DNA from: Gordius sp. MW1
Lineage: Eukaryota; Nematomorpha; Gordioida; Gordea; Gordiidae
Length of the DNA stretch: 64,000 nucleotides
Reading direction: 5' to 3'
NCBI GenBank assembly: GCA_964036665.1
Contig: OZ038530.1
Location: 4,650,001 to 4,714,000 of the forward strand
The notes under the pieces are model-generated. The model did no database searches. It had not been told where the DNA came from and saw only the letters and a list, made by a program, of their open reading frames with translations. Of this stretch, positions 1 through 56,766 are shown one piece after another. Position 1 is the first letter of the stretch; each line of letters begins with the position of its first letter. Position numbers and translations under genes: made by a program.

Positions 1-2338
1 TTTACGTTTAAAAAGTACAAGAATTATTGAGTGACAAGGTAAGACGCGACAAAGACTACAGAACAGAGAGGAGACGCTATTATTACCATAAGCCGTGATG
101 ATAATTAAAGTAATATTTAATTATTTGTGAAGTCTTTTTATTTTAAAGCATGTGGCTGTCTGATGTCTACTTCTACTACAAGCAATAAATACAAAGGCAA
201 ATTAAAAAGCTCTAAAGAGCCAATTTGCTTCCATTTTTGTTTTGTAAGTTATATAATTAAAAATGTTTCCAAGGCATATTTTTATGAATGCCTAGGTTTA
301 AATATCAATCTAGTAAAGTAAACCCTTTGATATTATTATCATATCTACAAAATTATTTTGGGAAATTACAATTATTTAAGCTAAGAACTTTTAAAATGTT
401 GCGATCAAAAAATAGAATCATTATGCTTGTCAATTATCAAAATAAAGAGCCATTCTCAAGTTCATCACTTAAGATATGGGCTTTAATATGGTATCCTAGC
501 GATAAATTGTAAAGTTTGCACATCTTTTTTAGCTTAACCCAAAATTGATTTCGTTTTGCCCGACGCGACCAATATTTTGTTTTTTGCCCACTCGGGGCGG
601 TGTGCCTTGAGGGATAGAGGAGTATTCATAAGAATTTTGTTCATGAAGCCAGTATATTTATTTATGTTGATTTAATTTGAATCATATTTATTCACAGTTA
701 AGAGCTGTTATTGCAGCTAAATGCAAATGCTGTAGAAAATTTTTTTAAATGATTAAATTATCATAGTGAATCTATAATAAAGTTTGGGCTTTAAAGGTAA
801 TATACAGAATAGAAAAAGGTTGATTAGTTTTTCAAAAGGTAAATATGGGCCGGACTAGCCAAAGAGCAGTTTTCCTCGATTCAACCCGTCAGATTAAATA
901 TTTTATATACCCAGCCCGCACATGGAATGGGCATCTAGATCTCTTATACCACTGGAGTGGGTTTTATTATAAAGGGGAATAGGGCAAAATAGTAATTTCC
1001 AAATTTCTGATCATAATTCCATTTTAAAAAGTTTAAATTTTAATTTGGTAAAATTAGAAACATCGACATATTTAAGGCGATAATATGTTATAAAAGTAAT
1101 AAGCGCCTTCTATATATTTTCTTTTAAGCTTTAAATTAACAGTATTTCATTTAAAGTTATTATAGTTGGACTATATAAAAAATCAAAGGGCATCATTAAA
1201 ATTTTTACAAGTTATATTATATCATATTAATCAATAAACAGTTATCTTTTAAAAATAATATTTTTCCAAATTTAAAAAAGGAAATTTATTATACCTTAAA
1301 ATTTAAACCTTTACACCACGCTTATGATCGAGTCTGGCGCAGACTAATTGAAACCCGATTTTAACTCGGCCCCATTGGAGCAGATAGCAGGTCCAAAATT
1401 TTGTAGGATAAATTTAGAAAACCTTAATCTGTTTTGAATCACGTAAATGCAAGAGTTTAACTACACGCTCGTTGGGTTCAAAATATTTATGTCGATTAGT
1501 AGAGACATTTTGATTTTTAATAATATTTATGTTGCCAATTTTTAAAAATTTTATTATAATGTTTTAAAATAAGCAGGCGGACAATTTTTCATTTTTATTT
1601 GTAGTCCTTTCAACTTTGTATTTTTAGTTTATTAGATCAAATATAAAATTTTATTTAATAGGACTTAAATAAGTAGATCGTGTATTTTTGTTGTAATATT
1701 TATAACTGGATTGATTCTTGATAAGCGAAAAAGTCAACTAATTTTGGTTGTAATAAATGTAAAAAATGACAATCAACCATTATTCTGTGTTCTTTCAAAA
1801 TTTAATTTCTGCAAATGTTGGTGCAGTTTTATCTTAAAGTTACACTAATGAGAATAAAAAATTATAACTTATCGATGTAAATAATTATTAATTGCTATGC
1901 AATTTTATTATAATTTATGCACACAAAATGATCAAATAAAAGATATCGATTTATTTTTAAACTAAATTTCGGCTAAGATTTGCAAAGATTTTTCTAATGA
2001 AAATTATGTGTTGAGCAAAACATTTTCTGGTAGAAAATTACATTTCCTTAAGTCAAACGGGGGTAGAAGCCCCCAACTACGCCCGAAGGGCCTATATGAA
2101 TAAATACTTCTATAATTCTATGTCTAAAGATCAATCACACTTTTTTAACCCGGGGTCCTCATAATTTTGAAATACCATTTTAAAAGCTTTTAAATAACAA
2201 TATTTGAAAACTGCTTTAAAATTTTATAATTTTTTCTGAATTTTGTATTTATGGAATAATATACTTTAATTTATATTATATATATTTAAGCTTTTATTTT
2301 TTTGACTAATATTAAAAAATTGTATTTTTTAATTATAT
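1..2338. other. AT-rich stretch without a recognised gene
   Basis: No coding exon or RNA gene is recognised here. The short open frames at 127-512 have AT-driven composition and no domain. A GC-richer scrap at 2055-2165 (poly-G, AACTACGCCCGAAGGG) looks like a decayed MITE end. Confidence 0.5.
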
Positions 2339-3811
2339 CAAGAGATCTGCAACGGGCCTGTTACGGGCTAATCGGCTATCCCGTTGTAAAAAATTTTAAG
2401 CCCGGGCCCGGTCCGAGCCCGTCAAAATATTAAATTATAGGCCCGGTCCCGGCCCGCTAATTTTATACAAACCCCGAGCCTGACCCCATATAATTTTTTT
2501 TTAGATTTTAATTTTAACGAAATGGTAAACAATTGTAAAGTTGAAATAAATAAATTAAAAAGTTAAGAATCGTAAATATTAGGAAAACATTCGGTTATGG
2601 CTAATGAATTACATCTACAGATGGTTATGCCGATTTTCTGTCGAATGAAAAACGATTCGCGATTATCATGGGATAGCAATGAAATTTGTTCCCTTATTTT
2701 TTAAAAAGTTGTAAGGCTAGGGGGCCAATTGTTAGGGTAGTTGTCGCAATGGGACAAAATATTATGGTAGTGTTGTTAATATCCGAGTATTTTGAAATTT
2801 TTAGAGCCTCGGCTGAGGACAAGGGATCATTGTTATGATTAGATGGGGCAAATACGTCAGTACATACTGAGTCCTTTTTCCCAAGCACCTAAAGTTTGGC
2901 CATCGGGTCGTTTGTTGTCATCACAGAGGCCTGTGGGTTCGAGAATTGAGGGGAAACCAGCTTTGGTGAAATAGGTAGGTATAACTTTGTTAACCGCGGT
3001 ATGTCGAAAGTACCGGGCTTTGTTGCGATTACAGTGTTATGTAAAAATAGTTAATTATCAACAATTTCTGGACAGACGAGTTCTTCTATCTTTTAAGAGG
3101 GGACCTAGAGGAAAAATTTTTTATCACTAGTGACACTGTAGTTTGGATACGTAAAACCATTTGCCAAAAAACTTTATAAGATTTTATTTAAAGTTAGAAT
3201 ATTTTTAATAACATTGCTTGGCTTCTTGGCTTTTCCATTATTTTAATCTTTTAGGTTATTGATACGAAATGGAAAAACAGTGATATTTTATAATGGAAAT
3301 TTGAGTAAAGTATAACTTTTTAGATTTCTTTTTAAATTTTGTAGTGACTATAAACAAAGTTTTTTTTCATAATATTAAATCACTTTTATATTGCTAGACG
3401 GTATAAATGGGGAATCAAGGATGGGCATCTGCCCACCCCTAATCCAAAATTTCTTGATCTAAATTTTTTTTGCACTACCTAAATCATTACTGCCCCCTCT
3501 AATTTAAATCATGGCTACGCCCATGGGATTACGTGACTTGAAATGCGCGTTTTGATGAATGATCGAATTAAGATGAATAAAACATTAGATTATATTTTAA
3601 ACACCAAAAAATAAACATTTTTTAATATTAATACTAAAACTAATGGATTTTGTAAAGGGCTTCTAATCTAGGCCTGACCCGAGCCCGCTAGGTTAGATTA
3701 CAACCCGTCTAGGCACGGTTCGTTGTTTTATTTTGAAAGAGAAGCCCGTGGCCGGGCTTTTAGGCCTGTCCGCAGGCCGGGCCGGGCCGTGCAGGGCTCT
3801 ATTATAATCAA
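2339..3811. mobile_element. Probable decayed hAT-like element with GC-rich inverted ends
   Basis: The left end (AGATCTGCAACGGGCCTG followed by GGCCCGG-rich sequence to about 2480) and the reverse complement of the right end (GAGCCCTGCACGGCCCGG, GC-rich from about 3660) resemble each other and enclose about 1.47 kb. TCTGCA-type ends with GGGCCCGG subterminal repeats are common in hAT-like non-autonomous elements. No convincing 8-bp duplication flanks it, so the exact limits are inferred. It contains a retroelement coding scrap on the minus strand (2694-3036) and a small MITE-like piece near 3420-3525. Confidence 0.45.
2694..3036 (-). pseudogene. Retrotransposon ORF remnant (region downstream of reverse transcriptase)
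   Basis: The minus strand is open from about 3036 to 2694, without a plausible start. It reads in order RHTAVNKVI, GFPSILEPTGLCDD, NKRPDGQTL, then KYSD and TIGPLAL. This order (RHxxxN, EPxGL, KRPDG, Ala-rich helix, KY, xxLGP) is one I recall from the C-terminal part of reverse-transcriptase proteins of invertebrate LINE-like elements; that is memory, not a search. No reverse-transcriptase core is visible beside it, so it is a fragment. A homology search would settle the family. Confidence 0.5.
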
Positions 3812-6800
3812 TATGGCATTGGTAAGTAAGTCGCTTTTTTATTATAAATCTAATAATTATTTCATAGCTATCTTTTACTTATTTTTAGTTTTATATAACC
3901 GATTATTTCTAACCAAATTTTACAATTTAGGAAAAATTTGTTCTAATGTAAAATGTTTAGTTTACAGAAATTAATTTAAATTACTAACTATAAATAAAAA
4001 CAAACCATTGCTGTGTAAAAGAACATTTCATAATGATAAACATCGATCTAAAAAAACTATATTATATTGATTAATAAAAATATTCTTAAAAAAAATTCGG
4101 ACATGTTTAAGAGAGCGAATCTTGCGTTATTAAAAAATACACTCATTCTATTAATTTTAAACCTAATAGGCTTTTTATAATTAATAGCTTTAAATTAAGT
4201 TTATCACACACACACACCTTATTTTAATGGGTTAATGGGGGTGATCTCTAAAAGGGAGCCCGTAAATTGAGATGTCATCATAGATTAGATAAGAAGGGTC
4301 GATTGGAGTAATTATCTAACCCAGAACAGCTACGCGTTAGATGTATTCTTCGCTTGAGCAGATTAATTGTCCAATTATAAATAGGACATATCCGCCGGGC
4401 ATAAAAAGACATTAGATACCTCACTCTTGCTTGGTGCGTCGGTCATTAATTTTAAATTTTTACAATAGGCCACGCTTTACAGTTGTACTGAGCATTAGAG
4501 TCTACTAATTGCTCTTTTAATGACAACGAAACAGGGTTCATTCATTATATAATGTAACTGTAGAATTCGCGAAGGCACATCTTCAGTAAACTGAAACCTT
4601 GACGCTAAATTATCCTATCCGCTTTTGTAAATCTACTATTTTTGTGACATAATTGTTAAAGTTTAAAATTATTTGATCTCTACCCTATATCTAAAAATAC
4701 AAAGTAATACATATCGAGAAACTAGCACTTAGTTGCTAACTCCGGGTATGTCTAACTTTATGGAATTTAACCGAATATAACTAACTATCAAATGCATATC
4801 AAGATTATATTTAAATACAAAAATAAATGAGAAATTAACATGCATAAGACCAAGACTTAGTTTCATTACAGTAAGAGTAAGCTATTAACTTCATTTCAAT
4901 CTATTATAATTTAAACCCATTTTTATGGCAATTCAAAGATGAAATTAATTTAATTAACTCGAAAGCATCAATAATTTAGGCATCTTTGATGATTGAAGTG
5001 AAGATGGATTGGTTTTAAGTTTCACGTTTGACCGTAAGAGGTTCGATAGAATTATAATAAATCAAATTTTGATATTAAATTTTATATTATCCAAAATAAT
5101 ACTCCTCAATTTGAGAAAGGATTAATATCATCTAAATTGAACCACAAGATTGGGAAACTTTATTGAATAAATTGAGTGATCTGAATAAGTAAATAGTTTA
5201 TGGTCGGGTTCATATAAATATTAGATCCTCATTAAAATTTATTCAAAGTTGGTGGAAAGGGACTAGAAAAAAAGCAAAATGAAAGCCAAAATAGGTTGTC
5301 GTTGTTTAGACGGATTGCACTACTTAAGATTTTTAGAATTTAGGGAAAAGGCGATTGAGATGAGGCCAATACCAACCCCATTATTTAATTAACAATCAAC
5401 ATATTTATATAAAAAGAATGGTATGGTCCTAATTTAAAATAAAATCACTTGTCATATCTACTCTTTATTTTATCATAAATTAAAAATTATTTGAAATAAA
5501 GATAGTCAAATTCTTTTTCTATGAAAGCTAAGACTTGTTTAATTAAATTAATATTATTTGGCCTTTTAATTGCTGTATTAATTAACTTCATGTAATACCA
5601 ACCTTTGTTTAGTGTAATACTTTCATAAATTTTAGTCATTTTTTTATATACAACGGAGCTTTTATGACCCGCATTTTAAATTAAAATATAAAAAAAAATA
5701 ATTGCCCCTTTTTGTTTTGAACCGCACAGGTAAGCACCCCTAAATATTGATTTTTGCCTGTTTCTAGTTAAGCGCTTAATTGAATACCATATATTTAAGT
5801 ATTTGTTCGCCACAAAATTTTTAAAGCAAAAACCTGAAATTGCTTTAAATTTTATCTCATGAACTTATTTTTCAGAGGGGGGGGGCGATTTGAAAAGGGC
5901 CAAAATGAATAAAAATGTGACAGCTAACCCCTTCTCAATATTTCCCCTATCACAATGTATGAATTATTTAATCTATAATATATTTTTAATAACTTGATTA
6001 GACGAATTTAGATATATATTGCAACAATGTTTAAACTTGATGAAGCTGAGGCCCGGTCAAGTTATGGTCATGGACCAACGCTATTATTCCTTATTAATTT
6101 AGAAGACTACATTATCGACACCAAGCATCAAATTTAGCTGCCAGTATTTTTTATTTCTATAATAAAGAATATTGCTGCGCGCATATTTATGGGCTAGCAT
6201 GGGCATAGTCAAGGGGTGGCAGGGAGAGGCGACTGCCCCCCTTTAAATCCAAAAATTTGTTGAGATTATTAAAATTATGGCTAAAATTTCAAAAAATGAT
6301 CATTTTGCCCCTCCCTAAATCCTTATTGCCCCCCTCCAATTCCAATGATGTACGTCCATGTGGGCAAGTTTTTCTACTCATTAAAAACTGCTATGAGTTT
6401 AGATTTTAATGCCTGCCCATTCACCATCTTTTTGTGATGTTTAAATAATGCAGCACTACCTAGAGGTAACAATATGACAAACTTTACCTGTCAGGTCACA
6501 AAAAAATATGATAACGTTCAATTGTGACTAAATTTGCCTGGAGTAGTGGTACTGGAGTAGTTGTTATATAGGCATTAGAATTTTCTCACACAAATTTACG
6601 ACACCTTTCATCTGGTAAAATGGTAAACAAACACTATGCCTTGCATTCTGTGATGTATGCCTAGCAATTTTATATGTGCTCGGTAACGCGGTTAAGGGAA
6701 TATTTGATCAATCCATCAATTTGCTTAACCACCAGTACACAAAATACCAGGTTAAAGGTGTCTGAGAAAATAGCATTTAATTATAATTTCCGCCTACTTT

Positions 6801-20931: not shown

Positions 20932-20939
20932 CCATACAC
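20932..20939. repeat. Left target-site duplication of the foldback element
   Basis: CCATACAC directly before the element end TAGTGTTGTAAAAA. The same 8 bases follow the right end at 26228-26235. Confidence 0.93.
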
Positions 20940-21319
20940 TAGTGTTGTAAAAAACCAAGGGTTTCTATTGGTTGCCTGCAAGCGTTGGCGTTTTTTTTCA
21001 CCCAACCTTTTCAGTGTTAGGTGAATTTTCTTGGGAGGGCTTTGGCGTTTGGCATTTTCGTAAAAAACACCCAAAGCGGGTGTTTTTTTTGGGGCACCTT
21101 TGGCGTTTAGGTTTGGGTGTATTAAACAACTAAAGGGTTTGGGTGGAAATATTATTAACCCTTTGGTTTGGTTTTGGTCGTTTTGGGTTGGGCATGCAAA
21201 TTTATCAATTTGTTTATATTGTTCATCTTATTTGTGTATTTAATTTAGGAAAATAAAAATAAATGTATTAGTAAGTAGTGAATTAATATGTTTTATTTAT
21301 GAAAAAAAATTTGTGAAGA

Positions 21320-22310
21320 TTTGCCCCCCCCCTTATTTTTTACCCTCTTTCCCACCTGGGGAGGAACGGCGGGCAGGTGGGGTGTTTGCCCCCCCCCCTA
21401 ATTTTTTACCCTCTTTCTGATGCGAGGGAGTAGGGGGCAGGGGGTGTTTTGCCCCCCCCCTAATTTTTTACCCTCTTTCTGATGTGGGGGAGAGGAGGGG
21501 GGGGCATAGGGGGTGCTTTGCCCCCCCCCCTAATTTTTTACCCTTTTTCTGATCCGGGGGAGAGAGGGGGGCATGGGGGGAGTTTTGCCCCCCCCCCCCC
21601 AAAATTTTTTACCCTCTTTTTGATGCGAGGGAGAGGGGGGGCAGGGGGTGTTTTGCCCCCCCCCCCCAATTCTTTATCCTCTTTCTAATGCGGGGGAGAG
21701 GAGGGCATGGGGGGTGTTTTGCCCCCCCCCCCTAATTTTTTACCCTCTTTCTGATCCGGAGGAGAGGTGGGGGGGGCATAGGGGTGTTTTGCCCCCCCCC
21801 CTTATTTTTTACCCTCTTTCTGATGTGAGGGAGAGGGAGGGGGCATAGAGGGTGTTTTGCCCCCCCCCCAATTTTTTACCCTCTTTCTGATGTGGGGGAG
21901 AGGGGGGCAAGGGGGTGTTTTGCCCCCCCCCCCCTAATTTTTTACCCTCTTTCTGATGCGAGGGAGTAGGGGGCAGGGGGTGTTTTGCCCCCCCCCCCCC
22001 CAATTTTTTACCCTCTTTCTGATGCGGGTGAGAGGGGGGGCAGGGGGTGTTTTGCCCCCCTCCCCCCTAAATTTTTACCCCCTTTCTGATGCGAGGGAGA
22101 GGGGGGGGGTTGTTTTGCCCCCCCCCTTATTTTACCCTCTTTCTGATGCGAGGGAGAGGGGGGGGGCAGGGGGTGTTTTGCCCCCCCCTCCAATTTTTTA
22201 CCCTCTTTCTAATGCGGGGGAGAAGGGGGCATGGGGGTAGTTTTGCCCCCCCCTAATCTTTTACCCTCTTTCTGATGCGGGGAGAGGGGTGCAGGTGGGG
22301 TGTTTTCAAT
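21320..22310. repeat. Left-arm tandem array, about 15 GC-rich units
   Basis: About 15 copies by eye, each built as: TTTTGC, 8-13 C, TAATTTTTTACCCTCTTTC, TGATGCG, GGGAGAGGGGGGCA, GGGGGTG. The outermost unit differs (CACCTGGGGAGGAACGGCGG) and is matched by the outermost right-arm unit at about 25740-25800. Units differ mainly in homopolymer length and in GATGCG, GATGTG or GATCCG. Dense runs of G and C give strong quadruplex potential. Confidence 0.95.
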
Positions 22311-23605
22311 AAATAGAAAACGATTATAAAGTGAGATTTATCTGGCCATTCGAGAGCAGATTTTGAATTCAATCCTTCAATTAATAATTAATATTTTAAT
22401 TCATTCTAAATTAATGACAGCTAACAGATCCCCCTCTAAATATTTCCGGCAATAGCAATTTTAATCACAAAATTTAATTTCAAATATATTTTGAATTCCT
22501 CGCCTCTTGTAAAAGATAAAGACTTATTAATTATATAAGGTCCCTTTTATTTTATATTTAAACTATATTTTCAATATCAGAGAACGGCATCCCGCGCGAC
22601 TCGACATATCACCACTCCCATGTAGCATGTAGCATGTACTAATCCATTTTCTCTCGCCCTTCTCTCGTTGCAATGCATGCGCAATACCAGATTTAAACCT
22701 ATCAAGTTAAGTACTAAACTAAATATATAAAAGAAATCATGGCACAACAAGGCATGGTGTGGCGTGGGCTGGCTAGGCTCTTTATTACATCATTTTACAT
22801 TCATTTCTTTTTTAACGTACAACATATCAAGGTATGTAGAAGTTGCGAATCATATTATTATAAATAAAATAAATGAAAATTAAACTTTTTTTATTATGTC
22901 AACTACTAGTTAAGTCATAAGAATTAGAAAATTAAGTTTCTTATTAAATAATAAGCAATTATTTAAATTAAGATGCTTAACTCATTTTTGTTACTCAGAA
23001 AAGTCCGATATTTTTTATGATCCTTATAAGCATTGTAAACGCGAGGTCTAAGTCAACAGGACTTAGAGTGTTGGTGCCTTGTGAAAGCATAGTAATTAAT
23101 AGCATGATATGTTTTTGGAAATACCTTAAGTTTTTCCATTAAATGCCCAGATAACTTAAATAGTAAAACTTACTTACCCATGATGGCAAATTTTTTTAAA
23201 TTGGTAAAATTTCATATTAATATTATATTTAATAATACAGCTTATTTTTTAAATGAAGTTAAATTAAAAAAAAAAATTAATTGATATGGTATATTAAGAC
23301 AATTGTTGACCGCAAATCTTCAAAAATATATTTTCGAATTTTAGAAAATCTTTGTCATATAATAAGTCAATTTTCAAAAAAAATTAATAAATTTCAATAG
23401 AAAATGTTGATTAAGACATTTGTCACCACTATGACTGCAAATCTTCCCAAAAATATTTTTTATAATAGTAGAACATCTTTCAGTCATATAATGAGTCTAT
23501 TTTCAAAAAAATATATTAATTTCAATAGAAATGTTGATTATGACATTTGTCACCACTGTGACCGCAAAAATTCACAAAAATATTTTGAAAGGGTTAAAAA
23601 GGGCT
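22311..23605. other. Central loop of the foldback element
   Basis: About 1.3 kb of mostly AT-rich DNA between the inverted arrays. A GC-richer patch (about 22580-22790) has GTAGCATGTAGCATGTA and GGCATGGTGTGGCGTGG. The right part is a tandem repeat (23285-23590). No open frame with a recognisable domain. Confidence 0.7.
23285..23590. repeat. Tandem repeat, period about 125 bp, about 2.4 copies
   Basis: The block GTTGATTAAGACATTTGTCA, then GACTGCAAATCTTC, CATATAATGAGTC and TTAATTTCAATAGAAA recurs at about 23290, 23406 and 23531 with substitutions. The open frame at 23404-23625 is this repeat read through, not a gene. Confidence 0.75.
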
Positions 23606-24696
23606 TTCCGGCCCCCCCTGGGTGAGAAAGAGAGTAAAAAATAAGAAGAGGGGCGATTCACCCCCCCCCTCTCCCCGGCATCAGAAAGAGGGAAAATAGG
23701 GGGGGGGGGCAAAACACCCCCATGCCCCTCTCCCTCGCATAAGAAAGAAGGTAAAAATTAGGGGGGGGGCAAAACACCCCCCTTTTACCCCCCTCTCCCT
23801 CGCATCAGAAAGAGGGTAAAAAGTTAGGGGGGGGGGCAAAAAACCCCCCTCTCCCTCACATCAGTAAGAGGGTAAAAAATTAGGGGGGAGGGGGGCAAAA
23901 CACCCCCCTGCCCCCCCTCTCTCCCGCATCAGAAAGAGAATAAAAAATTAGGGGGGGGGGAGGCAAAACACCCCCTGCCCCCCCCCCTCTCCCTCGCATC
24001 AGAAAGAGGGTAAAAAATTAGGGGGGGGGGCAAAACACCCCCATGCCGCCCTCTCCCCGACATCAGAAAGAGGGTAAAAAATTAGGGGGGGGGAACACCC
24101 CCTGCCCCCCCTCTCCCTCGCATCAGAAAGAGGATAAAAAATTAGGGGGGGGGGCAAAACACCCCCCATGCCCCCCTCTCCTCCAGATCAGAAAGAGGGT
24201 AAAAAATTAGGGGGGGCGGGCAAAACACCCCCTCTCCCTCCCATCAGAAATAGGGTAAAAAATTAGAGGGGAGGGGGGCACCCTCTCCCCCGCATCAGAA
24301 AGAGGGTAAAAAATTGGGGGGGGGCAAAACACCTCCTGCCCCCCCCCTCTACCTCGCATCAGAAAGAGGGTAAAAAATTAGGGGGGGGGGGCAAAACACC
24401 CCCCTGCCCCCCCCCCCGCATCAGAAAGAGGGTAAAAAATTGGGGGGGGGGGGGGCGGCAAAACACCCCCATGCCCTCCCTCTCCCCCGGATCAGAAAGA
24501 GGGTAAAAAATTAGGGGGCCCCCCCTCTCCCCCACATCAGAAAGAGGGTAAAAAATTGGGGGGGGGGGCAAAACACTCTCTGCCCCTTCTCTCCCTCGCA
24601 TCAGAAAGAGGGTAAAAAATTAGGGGGGGGGCAAAACACCCCCTGCCCCCCCCTCTCCCTCGCATCAGAAAGAGGGTAAAAAATAAGGGGGGGGGG
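23606..24696. repeat. Right-arm tandem array, about 18 units
   Basis: The left-arm unit in inverted orientation: CATCAGAAAGAGGGTAAAAA, TTAG, 8-12 G, CAAAACACCCCC, TGCCCCCCTCTCCCTCG. About 18 units are counted here, with two more at 25676-25811 after the nested insertion, so the right array is longer than the left. The inner edge unit uses GGTGAGAAAGAG, like the outermost one. Confidence 0.93.
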
Positions 24697-25676
24697 CATG
24701 GGTTTGAACCCGCCCAAAATAAAATCGGGTTCGTGTTCGAGTTTGGCATAAATTTTGAAATCGGGTTCGGGTTCGTGTTCGGGTTTGCATAAATTTTAAA
24801 ACCCGGTTCGGGTACAGGTTCGGGTTCAAGAAATTTTATTATACTAACATTTTTATCTTCAAAAAATTATTGAATAGTTAACTTAATTTTTCAATAGCAC
24901 CTAATTAAATTCACATGCCAATTGTTTAATGGGGTTATTTTCCTTCACCATTTTTAGACTCTAAAAGAGAATAATAAAATATATGTCCTCATGGGCGTAC
25001 GCAGGGGGGGGCAGGGGGGGGGCGGCTGCCCCCCCCTAATTTATGAAAAAAAAAATTTTTCAATGCAAAAACATTGAAAAATTAAAAAAAATTATGTTTT
25101 GCCCCCCTCTAAATGAACTTTTGAACGTTTTGCCCCCCCCTAATTCAAAACCTGCGTACGCCCATGTATGTCCTATTCTTATTTAAACATTGTATAATAA
25201 TTAGACCTCAGTAAATTTTATAAACAAGTGAGAAACAAATTTAAAATTATAATAAACCATCTGATATTTCTTTATATTAAAGGTTAAAGTACATATATTT
25301 AAAGTATTTTACAGTTATTATATAAATTATAGTCTAATATATATCAATTATATATATAATATTAACAAATAATTCTTGAGATTTGTATTGATTAATGAAT
25401 GAAAAATGCCGAAAACATAAAAATATTGAAATTAAAATCATATGGTTTTCTTCGTTTCGTTACATTCTCATGATAGGGAAAACAGAGATATTCAATTCCA
25501 TTCACAATATATTTTTGATTTAAAAACCCGAACCCGACCCCTTTTTGTATTTATCGGGTTCGGGTTCGGGTTTTAAGGGTATTTTAAAAATGGGTTCGGG
25601 TTTGGGTTCGGGTTCTGTAAAACATCGGGTTTTACCCGGTTCGGGTTCAGGGGTTCGGGTTCGGGACAAACCCCTG
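24697..25676. mobile_element. Nested hAT-like element with GGGTTC subterminal repeats
   Basis: About 980 bp inserted in a poly-G tract of the right array. The ends are CATGGGTTTGAACCCG and, in reverse complement, CAGGGGTTTGTCCCGAACCC. Both subterminal regions are full of GGGTTCG repeats in inverted orientation. Poly-G lies on both sides, so a duplication of G bases is likely but its length cannot be fixed. The AT-rich interior contains the MITE at 24990-25166. Confidence 0.75.
24990..25166. mobile_element. hAT-type MITE, CATGGGCGTA family, copy inside the nested element
   Basis: A 177-bp element with 16-bp inverted ends CATGGGCGTACGCAGG, flanked by perfect 8-bp duplications TATGTCCT (24982-24989 and 25167-25174). 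Poly-G and poly-C tracts lie inside both ends. Same family as 11693-11859. It is the innermost of three insertions. Confidence 0.93.
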
Positions 25677-26227
25677 GGGGGGCAAAACACCCCCCTCTCC
25701 CTCGCATCAGAAAGAGGGTAAAAATTTAGGGGGGAGGGGCAAACACCCCACCTGCCCGCCGTTCCTCCCCAGGTGAGAAAGAGGGTAAAAAATAAAGGGG
25801 GGGGGGCAAATCTTCACAAATTTTTTTTCATAAATAAAACATATTAATTCACTACCTACTAATACATTTATTTTTATTTTCTTAAATTAAAAGTTCTTTA
25901 CCTAAATCTAAATACACAAATATGATGAACAATATAAACAAATTGATATATTTGCATGCCCAACCCAAAACGACCAAAACCAAACCAAAAGGTTAATAAT
26001 ATTATCCACCCAAACCTTTTAGCTGTTTAATACACCCAAATTTAAACGTCAAAGGTGCCCCCAAAAAAACACCCAAAACGCTAAGGGTGTTTTTTACGAA
26101 AACGCCAAAAGTCAAAGCCCTCTCAAGAAAATTCACTTAACACTGAAAAGGTTGGGTGAAAAAAAACGCCAACAACTAAGCTTAGCAATACGCTGGGAAA
26201 AACCAGCCAGCCGTTTTTACAACACTA
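25677..26227. repeat. Outer right arm: last two array units and terminal region
   Basis: It continues the right array after the nested element with two units, including the distinct outermost unit (CACCTGCCCGCCGTTCCTCC), then the unique terminal region that matches 20940-21319 inverted (for example GTTGGGCATGCAAAT against ATTTGCATGCCCAAC near 21187 and 25955). A stretch of about 19 bases near 25885 is present only in this arm. Confidence 0.9.
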
Positions 26228-26235
26228 CCATACAC
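26228..26235. repeat. Right target-site duplication of the foldback element
   Basis: CCATACAC, identical to 20932-20939. Confidence 0.93.
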
Positions 26236-28365: not shown

Positions 28366-28500
28366 TGCATTCCCCCCCCCCCCGGGTGAGAAAGAGGGTA
28401 AAAAAAATTGGTAAGGGGGGGGGGAGCAAATCACCTCCCCCTTGTGATAAAGAGGGTAAAAAAAGAGGGGGTGGGGTAAAAAAAGGAGGGGGGGGGTTCC
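28366..28500. repeat. Detached fragment of the foldback array
   Basis: GGGTGAGAAAGAGGGTAAAAA and a second GATAAAGAGGGTAAAAA with poly-G and GCAAATCACC match the edge units of the foldback right arm (about 23610-23665). It lies 2.1 kb outside that element, with no terminal region beside it. Confidence 0.75.
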
Positions 28501-40415: not shown

Positions 40416-43400
40416 TTAAGTGTCAGATCCTAAGATATAAAAATTTGGGACTTCCTGATCGCCTTTCTGCATTTGCTCTATAACCTTGAGGATCGAATTG
40501 TGGTTATTTTCATCCATATTAGATCCGCTATTAGCTAAGGAACCGTCCACTTGAAATTGAACCAAGGTGTAGAGGGCGTTGGGATCTAAGGTGTTAAGCA
40601 AATTGTTGTGGCTGTCATTGGCGATCGCCTCTGAGCTGACCCCTAATATAGCCGCTTCCGATCTAGGTATCATATCCAATTGAGCCTGTCGCACTGAATC
40701 CTCCATCTTAGTATGTTGTTGCCTTCGATGGTGATGCATAGGGAGGGATCCTACAACATGGTCCATGACTTCTTCTTCCTCAACTCCCTCATCCCCAGGA
40801 CCAAGCTCCGTCCCATTTTCGGGGTAAAAAGGGTTTCGTTGAACGGCGTAAAAATTATTCATGCCACCACCGGTGTGCAAATTCAAAGAATCCAAAGCCG
40901 CGGCCGTGCTTCCAGATTGATGGAGATAACCGCCGCCGTTTGCTTGATCGCCACTGCCACTGCCAGGTAAATAATCCGCCATGAGGTGATGGTAAGACGA
41001 CGCGGACTGCGCATTTTGTAAGTCGAGAGTTCCCATACTATCGACGCCCCCCGGTCCATCCGAGCCGTGGTAATATAGAGTGGACGAGCCCGGAGCATCG
41101 CCCCCTATAATGGGAACCGTGGTCAAAAATGATTCGGGTATAACGCTTATATTATTAATGTTATTGTTGCTGTCGATGTTCATTCCGGACCAAGAAACTT
41201 GGGCCGTGTTATGACCACCGAGACCATCTGCCCCAATTAAGTACAACGGGTTAGATGAGATTAGGTTAAGGTTTTGACCCGAAAGATTGTTAATGCTACT
41301 ATGTTGTCCAACCCTTGTATCATAAGAAAGGTTGTTCTGTGTGGCAGATAAGTTGGTTCCAATATTGAAATTGGTTCGGATACGTCTGGCGCCCGAGTAT
41401 TTGAAATGATTTTCTAAATGCTTCTTTAGGTAAAAGTTTTTGATGAATGTTTTGGGACACAGATGACATTTAAACTTTTTCTCTTCTACTATAATCGGTA
41501 TACCGCCTTCAAAGTTAGGATACTTTTGATGGAATATAAGATGCCGATTAAGTTTTTTAAGGTGGACGAATGCTTTAGGACACAAGTTACAATAATATTG
41601 TTTAGCCACCTTTTTACGATCGTTGCGAACTTCATTGGGCTGATGATGGGCAATGTGTAGCTCAAGATTTTTCTTAAAGGTAAACTTTCTGGGGCAAAGC
41701 GGGCACTTGAAAACAATATTTTCGCACCCCTTCTCTCTCACGCAAATATGCTTTTCCAAAACCTCACGAGTCGAATATCCCTTGTGGCACACATCGCATT
41801 TGTAAAGAGTGTTTGAATCGTGGACAAACAAATGCCTCTGTAACTTTTCTTTGCGGAAGAAATCCTTGTCGCAAATATGACAAGTGTATGGGTTGTGTCC
41901 ACTATGAATTTTGGCGTGACGTATAAGATGTGGTTCGTACGAGAAAGTTTTATCACATTGGGGACACTTGAAAGTTTGATTACCATGGGCCATAGCTATG
42001 TGCTCTTGCAAAAATTTGCGATGCGGAAATGCTTCGCCGCACGAATAACATTTATAAGGACGCTCACCGGTGTGTACTTTCATGTGCTCCAATAATTTTG
42101 TACGCTTAACGTAAGACTTAGAGCAGACATTGCAGACGTAAGGCTTGAGACCGGTATGGTTATACATGTGATAATTGAGTTCATTCCTTTGACTAAATTC
42201 TCTGGAACAAATCGGGCATTTCAGTATTTTTTGTAAGATACCGGAATGTGATTGGTAATGGGATTTTAGTTGACTTTTGGATGGAAAAGCTAAGGCACAC
42301 TGATCACACAAAAATTTATTTTCGGCATAGTGCCGTTCCAGGTGAACTTTAAATGAACGACCGGCCCGGGAAAACTTACCGCATATGTTGCAAAGAAAAT
42401 AATGCGGGGGAAGATTGTTGAAATGGATCGTTATAATGTGTTCGTCAAGAATCTTGCGTTCGCGAAAACTGTGATCGCACCCTTCGCAACAGTATAATTT
42501 AGTGACATCACAGGTTCGCAAGTGAATCAAGGGTAAACGAGCAGGCTTGACGGTAAAAATGGCTTCGTACATACGGTATTCCCGTTGACATATCGCAAGA
42601 TTACAAATTTGACCCGGAAGGGTTTCATTTTTAGGCCAATACTCTTCCCAAGGGTTTTCGGTGGTGATGGGACGTTTGTAGGGGTCCATAAAAGATGAAA
42701 ATTTAAATTGTTCGGGAAGATCCAAAGACATGTTTTGCATGAAAGGCAGAATGGTAGATTGCCCATTGCTGTCGACGCCGTGCTCGTCAAAAACTGTCCC
42801 GTTCCCGCGATACACAAATTCAAAAGGATGTGTTTGGTGGTCACCCGACGTCGAAGGGGCGCACTGGGTGGCTGCGACTGACTGGGTGGAATGATGTGCC
42901 ATTGGGTAGGGGATGATATCTTTAATGGGGAGTGTTTGGGAGATGGGGATGTAATTACTCAAAATTTGAGTGGTAGCCGATTCGATGCCGTAATCGGAGG
43001 GCATGGGATATTGCGGGAAGGATTCGGAGTTACCCAAACAGACGTGACCAATGAAAAGGTCTCGGGTTAGAAAGGAGTGCTTGCAATCGACACACTTGTA
43101 ATTTTTTTCGTTTAGTTCCTCAGAGCAGCCGTGTGATTGATAGTCAGCCTTGTTGTCATACTGGTTGTTGCACGAGATGCAGTGGTAGGTGGAAAAGGTG
43201 GCGGATTTCAAGGTGTAAAAATGGACGAGGTAATGTTTCTTTAAATTTTCGATGACGACAAAAGCTTGACCACATAAATAGCATTCATAAGGAACGACCG
43301 TGTTATGCAGCACGATGTGACGCCCGTAATTCGATTTGTTGGTGAATTGGCTGTGGCACATATCACATTTGAGCACAACTAACGTGGATCCTGATTCGTT

Positions 43401-46136
43401 GATCGAGGTTGGGAGACCACTTTTACTTTTCTCATTAGGACGAAGGGTGAGAAGGGTATGGACAAGGCTATCGTATTCTTGTTTTGTTTCCACCTTATTT
43501 GGACTCAAATTAGACGACGCCGTGTTAGTTGCTTTTGCCTTGAGGTCAGTGATGGTCGGACTCGAGAGCAGTCGAAGCGAGTTGTAAAGCAGAAAATTGT
43601 TTTGCTGGTGAAAGTGAAAGTCGGTATGAAAGTGGGCATTAAATATCGGGCGATCTTTGGTGACAAAAAAACATCGGGGACATTCGTAAGTGTCCTCAGA
43701 ACAGAGGGTTCCGGGTGCAACGTGTTGCGAAAATTCGTAAGCGTTTTCGAGGGCATTTCCGCACGTCGCGCATTGCCAAACCTCGTATAGTTCTGCCAAA
43801 TCATCAAGTCCAGCGTCAGGTTCACCAAATACTATAGAACCTGCTTCAGCATCCTTATCATCGATCTCGAGGTCACTTTCTTCAAAAAAATTATCATTGC
43901 GTCGCAAATTGTTTGCGTAATTTTTTTCGATAGGGTAGGTTTGCAGACCGGAGTATATGAATTCGGATTCGGTGGCGAATAGCAGACTCTCATTTTGCGT
44001 GATTTCGTTGCGTTGAATGATGTATTCTACGCCCCGCATTTCGCCATGACACTTACGGATATGGTTGTTGACGTTATAGATTTGGCGAAATAGAGATCCG
44101 CACACCTGACAACTAAATCGTTTAATATCGTCGTGGGAAAATTCGTGTTCCCGCAGCAAATACTCGTTGGGGAAGGAAAGGCGACAGGCGACGCAACGAA
44201 ATTTTGAGGGTTTGTAGATGGTTTTGTGATAGCGTTTAAGGTGCTTGAGCAGTAGGATTTTTTGGTCAAAATCAAGGTGGCAAAAGGCGCAGCGGAAGGG
44301 ACCTTTTGAAGAGTGGTAAAGCTGGTAGTGAATTTCGTATTTCTCTTGACGATCAAAATTTTTGCCGCACGCGTTACACGTGTAAAGCAGGCATCGGCCG
44401 CCGGTGAGATTGGCCACGCGAGCCATAAGCTCGAGGTTGTGATGGTTAACTTCGTGGGCTTTGAGTTGTTCTTGGGAGGAGAATACGCGAGAACACAAAT
44501 TACACATGAATGTGACGTCCAATTGGTGCAGGATGATATGATCCTGGAGGCGAACCTTGGTATCGAATGTTTCTCCGCATGTGTCGCATTCGAAGCGGGG
44601 AGACGCGAGGTGGGTGAAGTAGTGGTGCTTGAGGTCGTTGATGTTGTTGAAACGGATGTCACAGTAAAGGCAGAACAGGTTGTTTTCGTCCATTTTGTTG
44701 AAGGCCCAAAATGAGGTATCGAATATAGTGTTCAGTATGTGTGGTTGGATGGCGGACAAATTGTTCAGGTTACTTCTTAACAGGTCGGTGGCGCTAGTGT
44801 CCGGGTAGGAAATTTTATGACGCGAAACAGATCCTTTAGCGCCGCCTGTTAGAGAATTGGTGGTGCGCGATGAATCGTTGTTGAAAGCCTTTAAAATGTG
44901 TCGCCGGAAGAGGGGAGAATTTTTGGGGACACTGCGATGGAATCGACCGTGTAATTTACGAGCTACGGCATCGTGTTTTAAAGCGACTTCACATACTTCG
45001 CAAGACGATGAGGGTTCAGGAGAATCTAAGGCATTGTATTCGCACACATTATCTATATAATCGGGGGATGTAGGATGGGTAGGGCTCCCCTTTTTAAGAA
45101 TATTTTGTTGATTAACCCCTTCAAGAGGAACCATGGTAGGAGCTGGAGCTAAGGGAACATCTGAATCATTGTCCGGTGCCACCTTTTCAGCAACAACGGG
45201 CTTGGCTGGTCGTCCAGGTCGTCGTTTTGTGGTTAAAGTTGGTAACATTTTTTTAAATTTAAGATTATGGCTAGGCCATTTTTTCTTCACGTCGATAAAA
45301 CGTTTCTTTGTCCTTTCGGTCATGCTGCTCCTAGTTTCAGAGATAGGTGAATGGGATAACAAGGAGTTGTTATCGTCCGAATCGGCCGCGTTAAGGCCCG
45401 TAGCCAAAAGTTTGTGGTAAAGGTTTTGGTGGAGTAACGCGTGCTGTTCGATTGTGAACATTTTATCACAAAATTGACACTTGTAATTTTTGACGCGACA
45501 ATGGGTTACTTCGTGCTTCTGGAGGCCCCGTTCGTCGCCGACATCCTTGCCACAAACAGCGCATACGAATGCTCTATCCAAATGCTTAGCCTCGTGTTTT
45601 TTCAAATAAAATTTATTTTTAAACGTTTTCCCGCACACAAAACAGGTGTGAAGGTTGTTGAATAGTTCGGGTCGCCGCCTAACATGTAAATTGTTCGACA
45701 TTTTGGGTTCATCCCTGGCAAGTTTTTTGTAGCCTTTATTTGCCTTTTCGGTATCTTTATTATTAGGATTGACAGCGGCTTCCTTCCTCTTTGCGTAAAC
45801 ATCCTCGCAGTTGAGGCTAGTATATTTGGAGGAATTTGAGGTTTTATTCCTTTTTAAATCTTGCTTAGCATTCCCGTGTATCCTGCCATGCAACTTTAGA
45901 CGCAACCTGCTTTGAAAGGATGTCCCACAAACTTCACATTTAAATGATGCGGTCGTAAGTAATTTGGAGTTTAATGAATTTTTTATTTTGACGTTCCTAG
46001 TTGAGAGCTCCTTAGGCACCGAAGAAACAGCACTTTCTTCTCCAGCATGTGTTGCTAAATGGCGGTAAAGTTGAGATTTAACGGCAAACTTTTGCGGACA
46101 AAAATCGCATTCCAAAGGAAGTTCACTTTCCATCAT
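40416..46136 (-). CDS. Very large C2H2 zinc-finger protein, single coding exon (1906 aa)
   Basis: One uninterrupted frame from ATG at 46136 to the stop at 40416. By eye it has about 30 C2H2 fingers in groups: five in residues about 10-240 (first CDFCPQKF, then RHLATH), a middle set of about thirteen with several imperfect ones, and a compact C-terminal run of about twelve with canonical linkers such as HTGLKPY and HTGERPYKC. Long basic or Ser/Asn-rich spacers separate the groups, including RRPGRPAKPVV, an AT-hook-like stretch. The last 300 residues are Gly-, Asn- and Ser-rich without fingers. Most likely a nuclear DNA-binding regulator; no KRAB, BTB or ZAD domain is seen. Codon use is GC-richer than the surroundings. 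An acceptor-like TATATAG just upstream suggests a 5' UTR intron. No specific orthologue is recognised. Confidence 0.95.
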   Translation of the reverse strand: MMESELPLECDFCPQKFAVKSQLYRHLATHAGEESAVSSVPKELSTRNVKIKNSLNSKLLTTASFKCEVCGTSFQSRLRLKLHGRIHGNAKQDLKRNKTSNSSKYTSLNCEDVYAKRKEAAVNPNNKDTEKANKGYKKLARDEPKMSNNLHVRRRPELFNNLHTCFVCGKTFKNKFYLKKHEAKHLDRAFVCAVCGKDVGDERGLQKHEVTHCRVKNYKCQFCDKMFTIEQHALLHQNLYHKLLATGLNAADSDDNNSLLSHSPISETRSSMTERTKKRFIDVKKKWPSHNLKFKKMLPTLTTKRRPGRPAKPVVAEKVAPDNDSDVPLAPAPTMVPLEGVNQQNILKKGSPTHPTSPDYIDNVCEYNALDSPEPSSSCEVCEVALKHDAVARKLHGRFHRSVPKNSPLFRRHILKAFNNDSSRTTNSLTGGAKGSVSRHKISYPDTSATDLLRSNLNNLSAIQPHILNTIFDTSFWAFNKMDENNLFCLYCDIRFNNINDLKHHYFTHLASPRFECDTCGETFDTKVRLQDHIILHQLDVTFMCNLCSRVFSSQEQLKAHEVNHHNLELMARVANLTGGRCLLYTCNACGKNFDRQEKYEIHYQLYHSSKGPFRCAFCHLDFDQKILLLKHLKRYHKTIYKPSKFRCVACRLSFPNEYLLREHEFSHDDIKRFSCQVCGSLFRQIYNVNNHIRKCHGEMRGVEYIIQRNEITQNESLLFATESEFIYSGLQTYPIEKNYANNLRRNDNFFEESDLEIDDKDAEAGSIVFGEPDAGLDDLAELYEVWQCATCGNALENAYEFSQHVAPGTLCSEDTYECPRCFFVTKDRPIFNAHFHTDFHFHQQNNFLLYNSLRLLSSPTITDLKAKATNTASSNLSPNKVETKQEYDSLVHTLLTLRPNEKSKSGLPTSINESGSTLVVLKCDMCHSQFTNKSNYGRHIVLHNTVVPYECYLCGQAFVVIENLKKHYLVHFYTLKSATFSTYHCISCNNQYDNKADYQSHGCSEELNEKNYKCVDCKHSFLTRDLFIGHVCLGNSESFPQYPMPSDYGIESATTQILSNYIPISQTLPIKDIIPYPMAHHSTQSVAATQCAPSTSGDHQTHPFEFVYRGNGTVFDEHGVDSNGQSTILPFMQNMSLDLPEQFKFSSFMDPYKRPITTENPWEEYWPKNETLPGQICNLAICQREYRMYEAIFTVKPARLPLIHLRTCDVTKLYCCEGCDHSFRERKILDEHIITIHFNNLPPHYFLCNICGKFSRAGRSFKVHLERHYAENKFLCDQCALAFPSKSQLKSHYQSHSGILQKILKCPICSREFSQRNELNYHMYNHTGLKPYVCNVCSKSYVKRTKLLEHMKVHTGERPYKCYSCGEAFPHRKFLQEHIAMAHGNQTFKCPQCDKTFSYEPHLIRHAKIHSGHNPYTCHICDKDFFRKEKLQRHLFVHDSNTLYKCDVCHKGYSTREVLEKHICVREKGCENIVFKCPLCPRKFTFKKNLELHIAHHQPNEVRNDRKKVAKQYYCNLCPKAFVHLKKLNRHLIFHQKYPNFEGGIPIIVEEKKFKCHLCPKTFIKNFYLKKHLENHFKYSGARRIRTNFNIGTNLSATQNNLSYDTRVGQHSSINNLSGQNLNLISSNPLYLIGADGLGGHNTAQVSWSGMNIDSNNNINNISVIPESFLTTVPIIGGDAPGSSTLYYHGSDGPGGVDSMGTLDLQNAQSASSYHHLMADYLPGSGSGDQANGGGYLHQSGSTAAALDSLNLHTGGGMNNFYAVQRNPFYPENGTELGPGDEGVEEEEVMDHVVGSLPMHHHRRQQHTKMEDSVRQAQLDMIPRSEAAILGVSSEAIANDSHNNLLNTLDPNALYTLVQFQVDGSLANSGSNMDENNHNSILKVIEQMQKGDQEVPNFYILGSDT

Positions 46137-55920: not shown

Positions 55921-56178
55921 ATGCTATTTAAATTTTATTAGAGCCAAAGGTTAACACTACCTACCACGGTCCCAAGTCCGTGTGCAAAAAGTGGAGGGTT
56001 GATGTCAGGTTGGAAACCGGCTATAAGAACCAACTCCAAAATCATGAAAGTTTCAAACAAGATTTTACAACAGAAAGCTAGGGCGTCCTCCACAAACGAC
56101 GCGCACTGCATACCCCGCCCGTCACAATTTGAAAAATACACTAGGGTTACGGCCCAACTCGAAGGCGGTTTAGTTGTT

Positions 56179-56766
56179 GAAAGAATGCGAATAAGGTGCT
56201 GGAATGTTGGAACGTTGACGGGGAAGAGCATCAAGGTCGCCCAAATGCTAAAAAGAAGAAAGGTACACATCGCCTGCCTACAAGAGACGAGGTGGAACGG
56301 AACGAAAGCTCAGAAATTAGGAGAAGTATACAAGCTTTTCTACAGTGGGTCACCAAATCGTATAAACGGGGTCTGTATCGTTCTAAGCGAATCGTTCAAG
56401 GACAAGGTGGTGGAAGTCAAGCGTTGTTCCGACAGGCTAATGTGGGTGAAGATTGCAGATCTAGGGGGTCTTCTAACCGTTATGAGCGCGTATGCTCCCC
56501 AAATTGGGTGTATGGAATCAGAGATAGACATATTCTTCGATTCATTGAAAAAAGAAATACAAGGAATCCGACAGGATGAAAGGTTAATTATTGTGGCCGA
56601 TTTCAACGCTCACGTAGGGAAAGATCGTCTCGGGTATGACGCAATCATGGAGGCTATGGGCATGGTCGGAAGAGCAAAGAAGGGGAAAAACTTATCCAAG
56701 TATCCCAAGCATATGACATGGCGATCGTTAACACCTATTTTCAAAAACGCGAAGATCATATTGTGA
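56179..56766 (+). pseudogene. Endonuclease domain of the RTE element
   Basis: Part of an open frame (55999-56766). The catalytic-type blocks QETRW (Glu), SAYAP and DFNAHVG (Asp-Asn) are intact. The last block, the SDH-like QHRPL, lies in the next frame at about 56877, so a frameshift near 56750 separates it. In an active element this domain nicks the target DNA. Confidence 0.85.

Follow-up and report, generated by a model that had tools for sequence, protein, structure and literature searches.

Foldback transposons have been known for decades, and how their tandem-repeat arms arise and what purpose these serve is a standing question. The FB element of Drosophila and the TU elements of sea urchin both have inverted arms with tandem repeats; FB makes 9-bp target-site duplications and TU makes 8-bp ones. 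Transposons of the hAT superfamily duplicate 8 bp with the pattern nTnnnnAn and follow end rules in which left and right ends differ. In the hAT elements known to us, the terminal repeats are short. The available parts of the literature mostly assign foldbacks to Mutator, the exceptions being Galileo, of the P superfamily in Drosophila, and one foldback in Badal et al. 2013. The arms of Galileo were shown to hold extra transposase binding sites (PMC4168063, PMC3688188). For some foldbacks, such as Tetris, no enzyme was found; the authors of the Tetris paper, which cites the foldbacks of Drosophila and sea urchin, suggest Mutator (PMC4079207).

In this study, we analysed a foldback in a 64,000-nucleotide stretch of the genome of Gordius sp. 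MW1 (the window). Very probably the element is a non-autonomous hAT transposon of the cut-and-paste type. Its inverted ends would have been drawn out into foldback arms by a tandem satellite, and its line would have lost the gene and then been amplified.

Results

The element in the window

The first-pass annotation had described a 5,288-bp element with inverted arms of more than 1.3 kb, composed of a unique region and a satellite, and with a perfect 8-bp duplication and 14-bp hAT-like ends. All of this was confirmed. The element occupies 20940-26227 and is a copy without the transposase gene. Its ends, TAGTGTTGTAAAAA, lie at 20940-20953 and 26214-26227, with no further exact site in the window, and the flanking 8-mers CCATACAC are identical on the two sides. 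The left arm (20940-22306, 1,367 bp) consists of a unique part followed by a satellite array (21324-22306; period 66, 15 copies by TRF). The right arm is the left arm inverted, and its counterpart of the array lies in two blocks, at about 23610-24696 and 25677-25806. Between the shared 14 bp and position 45 (left) or 55 (right) the two arms differ; they agree from there inward. The features are as follows.

20932..20939, no strand: left target-site duplication CCATACAC
20940..20983, + strand: left-specific terminus, the shared 14-bp end and then left-only sequence
20984..21323, + strand: left unique subterminal arm; motif TTGGCGTTT three times within the arm's outer 320 bp
21324..22306, + strand: left satellite arm, unit of about 65 bp with poly-C and poly-G runs, 15 units (TRF)
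22310..23600, + strand: core, apparently what is left of the flanks of the transposase gene locus, without a match to a transposase
22825..22826, no strand: putative deletion junction, where the autonomous copy has the transposase gene (element 2070-5120)
23307-23586: 127-bp direct repeats inside the core
23610..24696, - strand: right satellite arm, inner part
24697..25676, no strand: insertion nested within the right satellite arm, with ends CATGGGTTTG / CAAACCCCTG
24990..25166, no strand: second nested insertion; its ends CATGGGCGTACGC are palindromic and its duplication, TATGTCCT, is 8 bp
25677..25806, - strand: right satellite arm, outer part, severed by the nested insertion
25807..26173, - strand: right unique subterminal arm, the inverse of the left; motif TTGGCGTTT twice in the outer 370 bp
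26174..26227, - strand: right-specific terminus
26228..26235, no strand: right target-site duplication CCATACAC

The second nested insertion sits inside the first, whose own duplication cannot be told because G runs flank it. Since nested elements interrupt the right arm, about 1 kb of the 5,288 bp was added by insertions of later date.

Family copies and target-site duplications

Other copies with the same ends, which the first-pass annotation expected of a foldback family, were found in the hundreds. The 211.8-Mb genome contains 160 exact left ends (first 22 bp) and 216 exact right ends (first 33 bp), against 0 for each in the reversed control. Of the 73 exact left ends on C1-C4, 59 are paired with an exact right end that faces them no more than 30 kb away. 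Among 590 candidate copies, 40 were scored. A search for the telomere pattern TTAGG produced just 2 hits. Both unique arms were present and inverted at 19 of 20 loci examined; the remaining locus, L023, has inverted satellite on both sides of the core and a right end located by pattern, and was excluded from the duplication and arm counts, its right arm lying outside the sequence examined. Arm lengths and duplications vary between loci. Counted in ten poly-G loci (the window copy, L009-L013, L019, L023, which is cut on one side, L024 and L027), satellite-unit motifs number 4-30 on each side, and the exact unit numbers of individual copies could be wrong. Three long copies carry additional sequence: foreign DNA at arm position ~225 in L082 and L083, and a retroelement in the core of L023.

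Duplications in the copies are 8 bp long, as had been anticipated, and perfect in 16 of the 21 copies with flanks compared. Of the five others, L010 has none, L012 has one mismatch, L024 and L028 have 7 and 6 bp, and L019 is partial, its right flank being incomplete in the sequence examined with the first 6 bases matching. T is found at position 2 in 17 and A at position 7 in 15 of the 21 perfect duplications scored for pattern (16 foldbacks, 4 MITEs and 1 sister-branch element). The sister branch has the same ends, and an AT-rich 110-bp repeat replaces the poly-G satellite. L086 has the duplication GATTGCAC on both sides; the compared flanks of L085 showed no matching duplication. Many short MITEs carry the 14-bp end, which has 4,691 exact matches in all versus 31 reversed, and some share the first 21 bp of the right terminus. 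Their duplications were perfect in four of eight cases (not perfect in L029, L032, L033 and L034; L035 was left out of the comparison). A tenth end pair, L038, was rejected as one element, as it consists of two separate MITEs about 2.6 kb apart.

Arm similarity and core flipping

Within one copy, the arms differ in the outermost 44-54 bp and are otherwise alike. Over positions 46-300 of 21 elements, left-right identity is 98.7% within an element; between elements it is 98.5% for left-left, 98.0% for right-right and 98.2% for left-right comparisons. No column in this range was fixed (≥80%) differently on the two sides. The outermost part, including the shared 14 bp, is only 55% alike between sides. 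Arm sequence past the terminal ~50 bp may thus have been levelled between left and right. Because 98.7 and 98.2% are barely apart, such levelling may be slow, or the values may go back to a recent common origin of the copies.

At 7 of the 53 loci that could be oriented, the core is flipped; this count was made with incomplete end lists for C5-C12, and a further 36 loci could not be oriented. Two of the seven are neighbouring C3 loci with nearly equal distances and may be one event. Partial lists had given 2 of 23 oriented core matches; the count of 7/53 is the fuller one. An apparent flip at L012 was ruled out, this locus having been read in the opposite sense.

The autonomous copy and its transposase

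The first-pass annotation had advised looking for a full hAT transposase with the same 14-bp ends, and such a copy exists at C4:23401221-23409826 (8,606 bp, duplication GTGGAAGC on both sides). It turned up inside unusually long family copies. Candidates for the autonomous partner among the high-scoring hAT loci (L039-L041 and the 3' flanks of L042-L081, drawn from 150 scored hAT loci) were without family ends and were rejected. The C4 copy matches the window element in its ends, satellite arms and core, and has 13 satellite-unit motifs on the left and 22 on the right. That the autonomous copy itself has satellite arms had not been foreseen.

The gene, modelled by hand without transcripts, has six exons with all introns GT...AG and encodes a 605-aa hAT transposase with DDE residues. 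Pfam matched Dimer_Tnp_hAT (1.1e-19) and zf-BED (3.9e-6), DUF659 and hAT-like_RNase-H matched below curated cut-offs only, and no THAP domain was found in the protein at E 0.1. The protein matches Hermes (6dww) at 8.5e-20, and D197, D263, E571, C288/H291 and W344 align with Hermes residues that we take to be catalytic or conserved. Among the 7,994 best candidates scored in a protein search, 23 were relatives, the best being 30% identical. A hAT-type MITE with ends TAGGGATGG lies inside an intron of the gene.

One autonomous copy, that on C4, was read end to end. Other gene-bearing copies are at C1:6.71 Mb, C8:24.79 Mb and C7:3.93 Mb, and the gene borders are identical or nearly so at three loci. 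The C1 copy, a second identical gene copy, starts at C1:6713122; its right end was not found at the expected distance, where the sequence is other DNA.

Gene-core junctions and probable gene loss

Gene and core are contiguous in the autonomous form. Sixteen of 40 scored places span the 3' gene-core junction; in the remaining 24 the match does not begin until query base 282, the start of the core. The 5' junction is spanned by 22 of 40 scored places, 17 stop there and one retains just the gene side. Nineteen of the 21 gene-less copies pass directly in the core from element 2064-2077 to 5120; the other two, L019 and L023, are disrupted at this joint. No transposase match was found in any of the 21 (L023 was searched in parts). 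Judged from these alignments, the window copy is an internal-deletion derivative, its core being that of the larger element minus the gene. The autonomous copy has an extra 0.6 kb of core (5537-6168) that is absent from the deleted copies, so it need not be their direct parent. Neither the apparent origin by deletion nor the possible levelling of the arms beyond the terminal ~50 bp had been envisaged by the earlier annotation.

Discussion

By sequence, the window element and the C4 copy are the same in ends, arms, core and type of duplication, the gene lies between the two halves of the core, and the junction recurs. Very probably a tandem satellite lengthened the inverted ends of a hAT transposon into foldback arms, giving a full-length 8.6-kb form with these arms and a spliced hAT transposase gene. 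Loss of the gene between two points of the core would have produced the form in the window, which was then probably amplified. The encoded transposase would bind the ends, with the TTGGCGTTT motifs repeated in the outer arms as possible contact sites, cut and insert the element with 8-bp duplications, and act in trans on deleted copies. The inverted arms may pair with each other, which would allow gene conversion to keep them alike and would occasionally flip the core.

It is improbable that a different hAT transposase of the same genome moves the foldbacks in trans, the resident gene being a passenger or dead. Related transposases may exist, as suggested by the many MITEs with the 14-bp end and by plentiful hAT domains (150 scored among 3,413 candidates), and an exact ACAACACTA stands in the flank of the hAT locus L080, corresponding to the final 9 bases of the end but lacking the TTTT that precedes them there. 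However, the 13-bp end in the inward sense had no match with at most two mismatches in 40 hAT 3' flanks (0.7-1 kb each) and L039-L041, and the nearest approaches to it, at L080, L049 (TCCTACAACTCTA) and L058 (TTTTTTAACACTA), are in the outward sense. On C1, C2 and C4, an exact family end lies within 7 kb on the proper side at 9 of 10 loci at least 88% identical to exon 3, four of the nine being one segmental duplication. Still a little less probable is that the gene arrived with an ordinary hAT element that jumped into the core of a foldback unrelated to it and has been carried along since. The MITE in the gene intron indicates that insertions inside the element do happen, but no terminal repeat was seen at the gene-core borders, where the ATG begins at element 2069, the 5' core match reaching to 2070, and where 47 bp separate the stop codon from the 3' core match (5120). 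Moreover, both junctions recur at many loci, and the gene-less copies have in common one joint of the two gene borders.

The available literature's assignment of foldbacks to Mutator or P would favour an element of those superfamilies that makes 8-bp duplications by chance. This is highly improbable, as both Pfam and the Hermes alignment identify the transposase within the element as hAT and the duplications fit the hAT pattern; such a reading could survive only with the gene as a passenger. Poly-G satellites are difficult to assemble, yet an assembly artefact, against which the first-pass annotation had cautioned, has a negligible chance of explaining the inverted repeats: misjoins would not predict target-site duplications that differ in sequence, as they do at 16 of 21 loci, nor variable arm lengths or convergent end pairs on four contigs.

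Within the preferred reading of a hAT transposon with satellite-lengthened arms, the chances are about even that the family is a living autonomous lineage, with a satellite that is native to the element and scarce outside it, with arms kept alike by pairing, with arm growth, core flips and gene loss as by-products of the element's foldback structure, and with arms that are exchangeable modules. If so, the near-identical gene borders at three loci would mean that the full-length element is still moving or has very recently stopped, and the AT-rich 110-bp repeat of the sister branch that arms act as such modules.

Present side by side in one genome are a full-length copy with the gene, partly deleted copies, copies devoid of the gene, MITEs that share the terminal bases, and a sister branch with another arm repeat. 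Since gene-bearing copies persist, the origin of the arms is open to direct study: the series lets arm growth be dated and binding of the arms by the transposase be tested, and lets it be asked whether a transposon seeds satellites.

The family resembles Hermes and other hAT elements in its DDE transposase with a C-terminal dimerisation domain, located between the ends in the one copy read whole, in its 8-bp duplication with T2 and A7 as in nTnnnnAn, and in its short, unequal left and right ends. It differs from them in that satellite extends the inverted ends to 1.4-2.1 kb. The architecture is that of a foldback, with long inverted arms, tandem repeats variable in number and a core between them, and by description resembles FB and TU. 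The likeness to the Drosophila foldback drawn in the first-pass annotation is one of architecture only, FB making 9-bp duplications and the duplications here being 8 bp. In the open-access collection searched, no foldback with a hAT transposase of its own turned up.

Galileo, as far as the available text describes it, is similar in its long, internally repetitive inverted arms and many non-autonomous copies, and differs in its P-type THAP transposase and arms of 0.5-1.2 kb (PMC4168063, PMC3688188); the Gordius element has hAT and BED domains in place of a P-type THAP transposase. Tetris of Drosophila virilis likewise has arm tandem repeats tied to satellite DNA and termini in common with a MITE, DAIBAM, whereas the accessible sections report duplications of 8-10 bp and no autonomous copy (PMC4079207); here a gene-bearing hAT copy exists. 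Tm1, a Mutator/Foldback of Meloidogyne, is described in the portion available as having arms of composite make-up, terminal motifs that are asymmetric and lie outside the inverted repeat, and both MITE-like and transposase-bearing members, as in our family, but a Phantom-type transposase and a 9-bp duplication (PMC3169594). In contrast to Mutator, the present element has a hAT transposase and 8-bp duplications. The family indicates that foldback arms arose in the hAT superfamily too, besides Mutator and P.

Results

The window element and its family in the genome

The first-pass annotation described a 5,288-bp foldback element with hAT-like ends, and every part of that description was confirmed in the sequence. 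The exact 14-bp end occurs at just two sites in the whole window, CCATACAC is identical on both sides of the element, and each arm combines a unique part with a poly-G/poly-C satellite whose unit is about 65 bp long. Without its nested insertions the window copy would measure about 4.3 kb.

Features of the window
20940-26227: foldback element (window copy)
24697-25676: nested insertion splitting the right arm of the window copy
24990-25166: second insertion inside the first, duplication TATGTCCT
28369-28481: isolated satellite patch, one to two units
40416-46148, minus strand: C2H2 zinc-finger reading frame, 1,910 residues, uninterrupted
55942-56766, plus strand: reading frame with endonuclease domain, perhaps a piece of a non-LTR retrotransposon

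Nesting in the right arm is thus three levels deep: the insertion at 24990-25166, which is palindromic and has ends CATGGGCGTACGC, lies within a CGGGTTCGGGTT-repeat element (24697-25676), which in turn lies within the foldback. Beyond the patch at 28369-28481, no match to the foldback element was found in the window outside 20940-26227.

The genome comprises 211.8 Mb in 12 contigs (C1-C12), and the window is C4:4650001-4714000. Searching with the left arm gave 590 candidates, 40 of which were scored; 20 of the 39 scored places other than the window were fetched for reading. Inverted unique arms were present on both sides at 19 of these 20 loci, and in L023 the right arm lies beyond the fetched stretch. 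Composition profiles of the copies have GC-rich blocks on both sides of the core (the segment between the arms, positions 1-1291), which was matched in 21/21 gene-less copies.

The exact 22-bp left end occurs 160 times and the exact 33-bp right end 216 times in the genome, with 0 matches for either reversed control; the 14-mer end by itself has 4,691 exact matches versus 31 when reversed. C1-C4 together contain 73 exact left ends, and for 59 of these an exact right end in convergent orientation follows within 30 kb. In 41 cases the closest partner is 3.3-6.8 kb away, in 12 it is nearer and in six it lies at 8.4-12.0 kb, one of these six spans enclosing another left end. Right-right convergent pairs exist too (e.g. 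C3:9758008/9759583). Among ten end pairs read on C1, eight were short (142-428 bp) and MITE-like, sharing at most 21 bp with the foldback right end and having their own subterminal sequence. L035 spans 1.4 kb, and L038 proved to be two separate MITEs. The MITEs of L029-L037 have the same 14-21 bp ends, and many carry TGGTCGACC-type subterminal sequence. At C2:5557587-5666421, a segment with a gene-bearing family copy occurs four times in steps of about 35-37 kb, once in inverted orientation.

Duplications of 8 bp, as noted in the window copy, recur in the family: they are perfect in 16 of 21 foldback copies (the window copy, 19 fetched copies and the autonomous copy; L023 left out). The exceptions are L010 (none), L012 (one mismatch), L024 (7 bp), L028 (6 bp) and L019, in which the right flank is incomplete in the fetched stretch and the first 6 bases agree. 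MITE duplications were perfect in four of eight. In 21 perfect duplications (16 foldbacks, four MITEs and one of the sister branch), position 2 is T in 17 and position 7 is A in 15. This preference is the hAT pattern, nTnnnnAn.

A foldback copy encoding a hAT transposase

The hAT transposase within the same ends, which the first-pass annotation had suggested looking for, was found in a copy picked among long family members. This autonomous copy (C4:23401221-23409826; 8,606 bp) holds hAT exons and is flanked on each side by GTGGAAGC.

Order of parts in the autonomous copy
left end
left arm with 13 satellite-unit motifs
core 1-516
transposase gene
core 516-930
extra stretch of 0.6 kb
core 940-1291
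right arm with 22 satellite-unit motifs
right end

The gene model has six exons with GT...AG introns and encodes 605 residues, including the BED finger CNICDKFYSGKTSTSNLKYHYSTCH. Pfam detected the hAT dimerisation domain (1.1e-19) and zf-BED (3.9e-6), and DUF659 and hAT-like_RNase-H scored under the cut-off. The closest solved structure is Hermes (6dww, 8.5e-20, residues 192-601); D197, D263 and E571 align with the Hermes residues that we take to be catalytic, and C288/H291 and W344 are also aligned. A MITE with ends TAGGGATGG sits in the second intron.

In 19 of 21 gene-less copies, position 2064-2077 of the autonomous element is followed directly in the core by position 5120, so that the skipped stretch begins at the start codon and ends 47 bp past the stop; in L019 and L023 the core is disrupted at this point. 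At a threshold of E 1e-4, none of the gene-less copies (0/21) matched a transposase, L023 being checked as two parts. Of 40 places scored with a query over the 3' gene-core border, 16 are covered across it and 24 match only from query base 282, the core start. At the 5' border, 22 of 40 scored places span, 17 stop at the border and one has the gene side only. Because the borders recur and the gene-less cores share the skip, the sequences indicate that gene and core form one unit and that the short core arose by deletion. The deleted copies lack the extra 0.6 kb (element 5537-6168), and therefore the autonomous copy need not be their direct parent. At six places (C4:10130015, C1:21930511 and four others) the 5' border query matches only in a stretch surrounding the junction, at 85-87%. 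Two of these copies fall between paired ends 4.1-4.3 kb apart, and the six are possible relatives retaining part of the gene.

The 3' border is 100% identical at C4:23.40 Mb, C1:6.71 Mb and C8:24.79 Mb. The 5' border is identical in C4 and C1; for C8 the identity is 100% after rounding, at a marginally lower score. The C4 and C1 gene copies have the same exon 3 product (272 residues) and unlike left flanks, which argues for movement over local duplication. The C8 gene copy has stops within its exon 3 matches. Two gene-less copies with different duplications, L020 and L022, show 98.7% identity across 4,585 aligned bases; L026 and L028, also gene-less, are 98.65% identical over 5,559.

Arms, satellite and sister branch

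In 21 elements, none of the columns of arm positions 46-300 is fixed, at 80% or more, for one base on the left and another on the right. Identity is 98.7% between left and right within an element, and between elements 98.2% left-right, 98.5% left-left and 98.0% right-right; the window copy has the lowest left-right likeness, 93.5%. The outermost parts (44 bp left, 54 bp right, the shared 14 bp included) are 99.8% alike among lefts, 98.2% among rights and 55% between left and right. That the ends differ while the inner arms agree suggests that the ends are presumably kept distinct by the transposase, and the remaining arm presumably levelled through arm pairing, the within-element excess being small.

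Core matches (core and both border queries) comprise 89 distinct loci, 53 of them orientable against exact ends. The core is reversed at seven of the 53, two with gene remains; at L027, a flipped-core locus, the duplication is intact. C3:19798529 and C3:19928709 both have gene remains and a reversed core at nearly equal distance from a left end.

TTGGCGTTT occurs four times in the left and three times in the right outer arm of the autonomous copy and is absent from the rest of that element; in the window copy the counts are three and two, and in shuffled sequence at most one. In Ac, subterminal repeats are bound by hAT transposases. The TTGGCGTTT repeats are possible candidates for transposase binding sites.

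A 30-bp piece of the satellite unit has 516 exact matches genome-wide (control, 0). The 100 matches listed cover C1 and part of C2, and 76 of them are enclosed by paired family ends; the paired elements used for this placing make up 148 kb of 54.8 Mb (C1 + C2). Another 12 have one exact end no more than 7 kb away, with C2:19413789 the one match outside rather than inside that end. Four lie beside core, seven in one further plus-then-minus cluster and one alone. Among the matches listed, the satellite is nearly confined to family elements and is therefore essentially a property of the foldback element.

Three elements, L085-L087 (2.35-3.0 kb), form a sister branch that shares the foldback ends and the outermost ~270-290 bp of each arm. 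A tandem repeat of 110 bp, rich in AT, lies in their arms (717-1,039 bp, 94.7-98.5% inverse); each element has one satellite-unit motif, and no transposase match was found in the three. Duplications are perfect in L086 and L087 and lacking in L085. All three have in the interior a second copy of the right end's first 56 bp adjoining core sequence, which points to an aberrant transposition or rearrangement.

Discussion

The ends, duplications, gene in place, deletion, arm likeness and core flips are read directly from the sequence, and a mechanism can be proposed beside them. The encoded transposase would cut out and insert both the element and the deleted copies related to it. In one arm the satellite would lengthen via slippage or unequal exchange, and this growth would pass to the other arm through pairing.

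In the open-access literature searched, we found no foldback with its own hAT transposase; "unreported" therefore holds within that library. In passages of papers on Tetris, Galileo (in D. willistoni, and its THAP sites) and Tm1 (PMC4079207, PMC4168063, PMC3688188, PMC3169594), foldbacks are mostly placed in Mutator; Galileo (P) is the named exception, and one more exception is cited as Badal et al. 2013. The same passages report long arms across different superfamilies.
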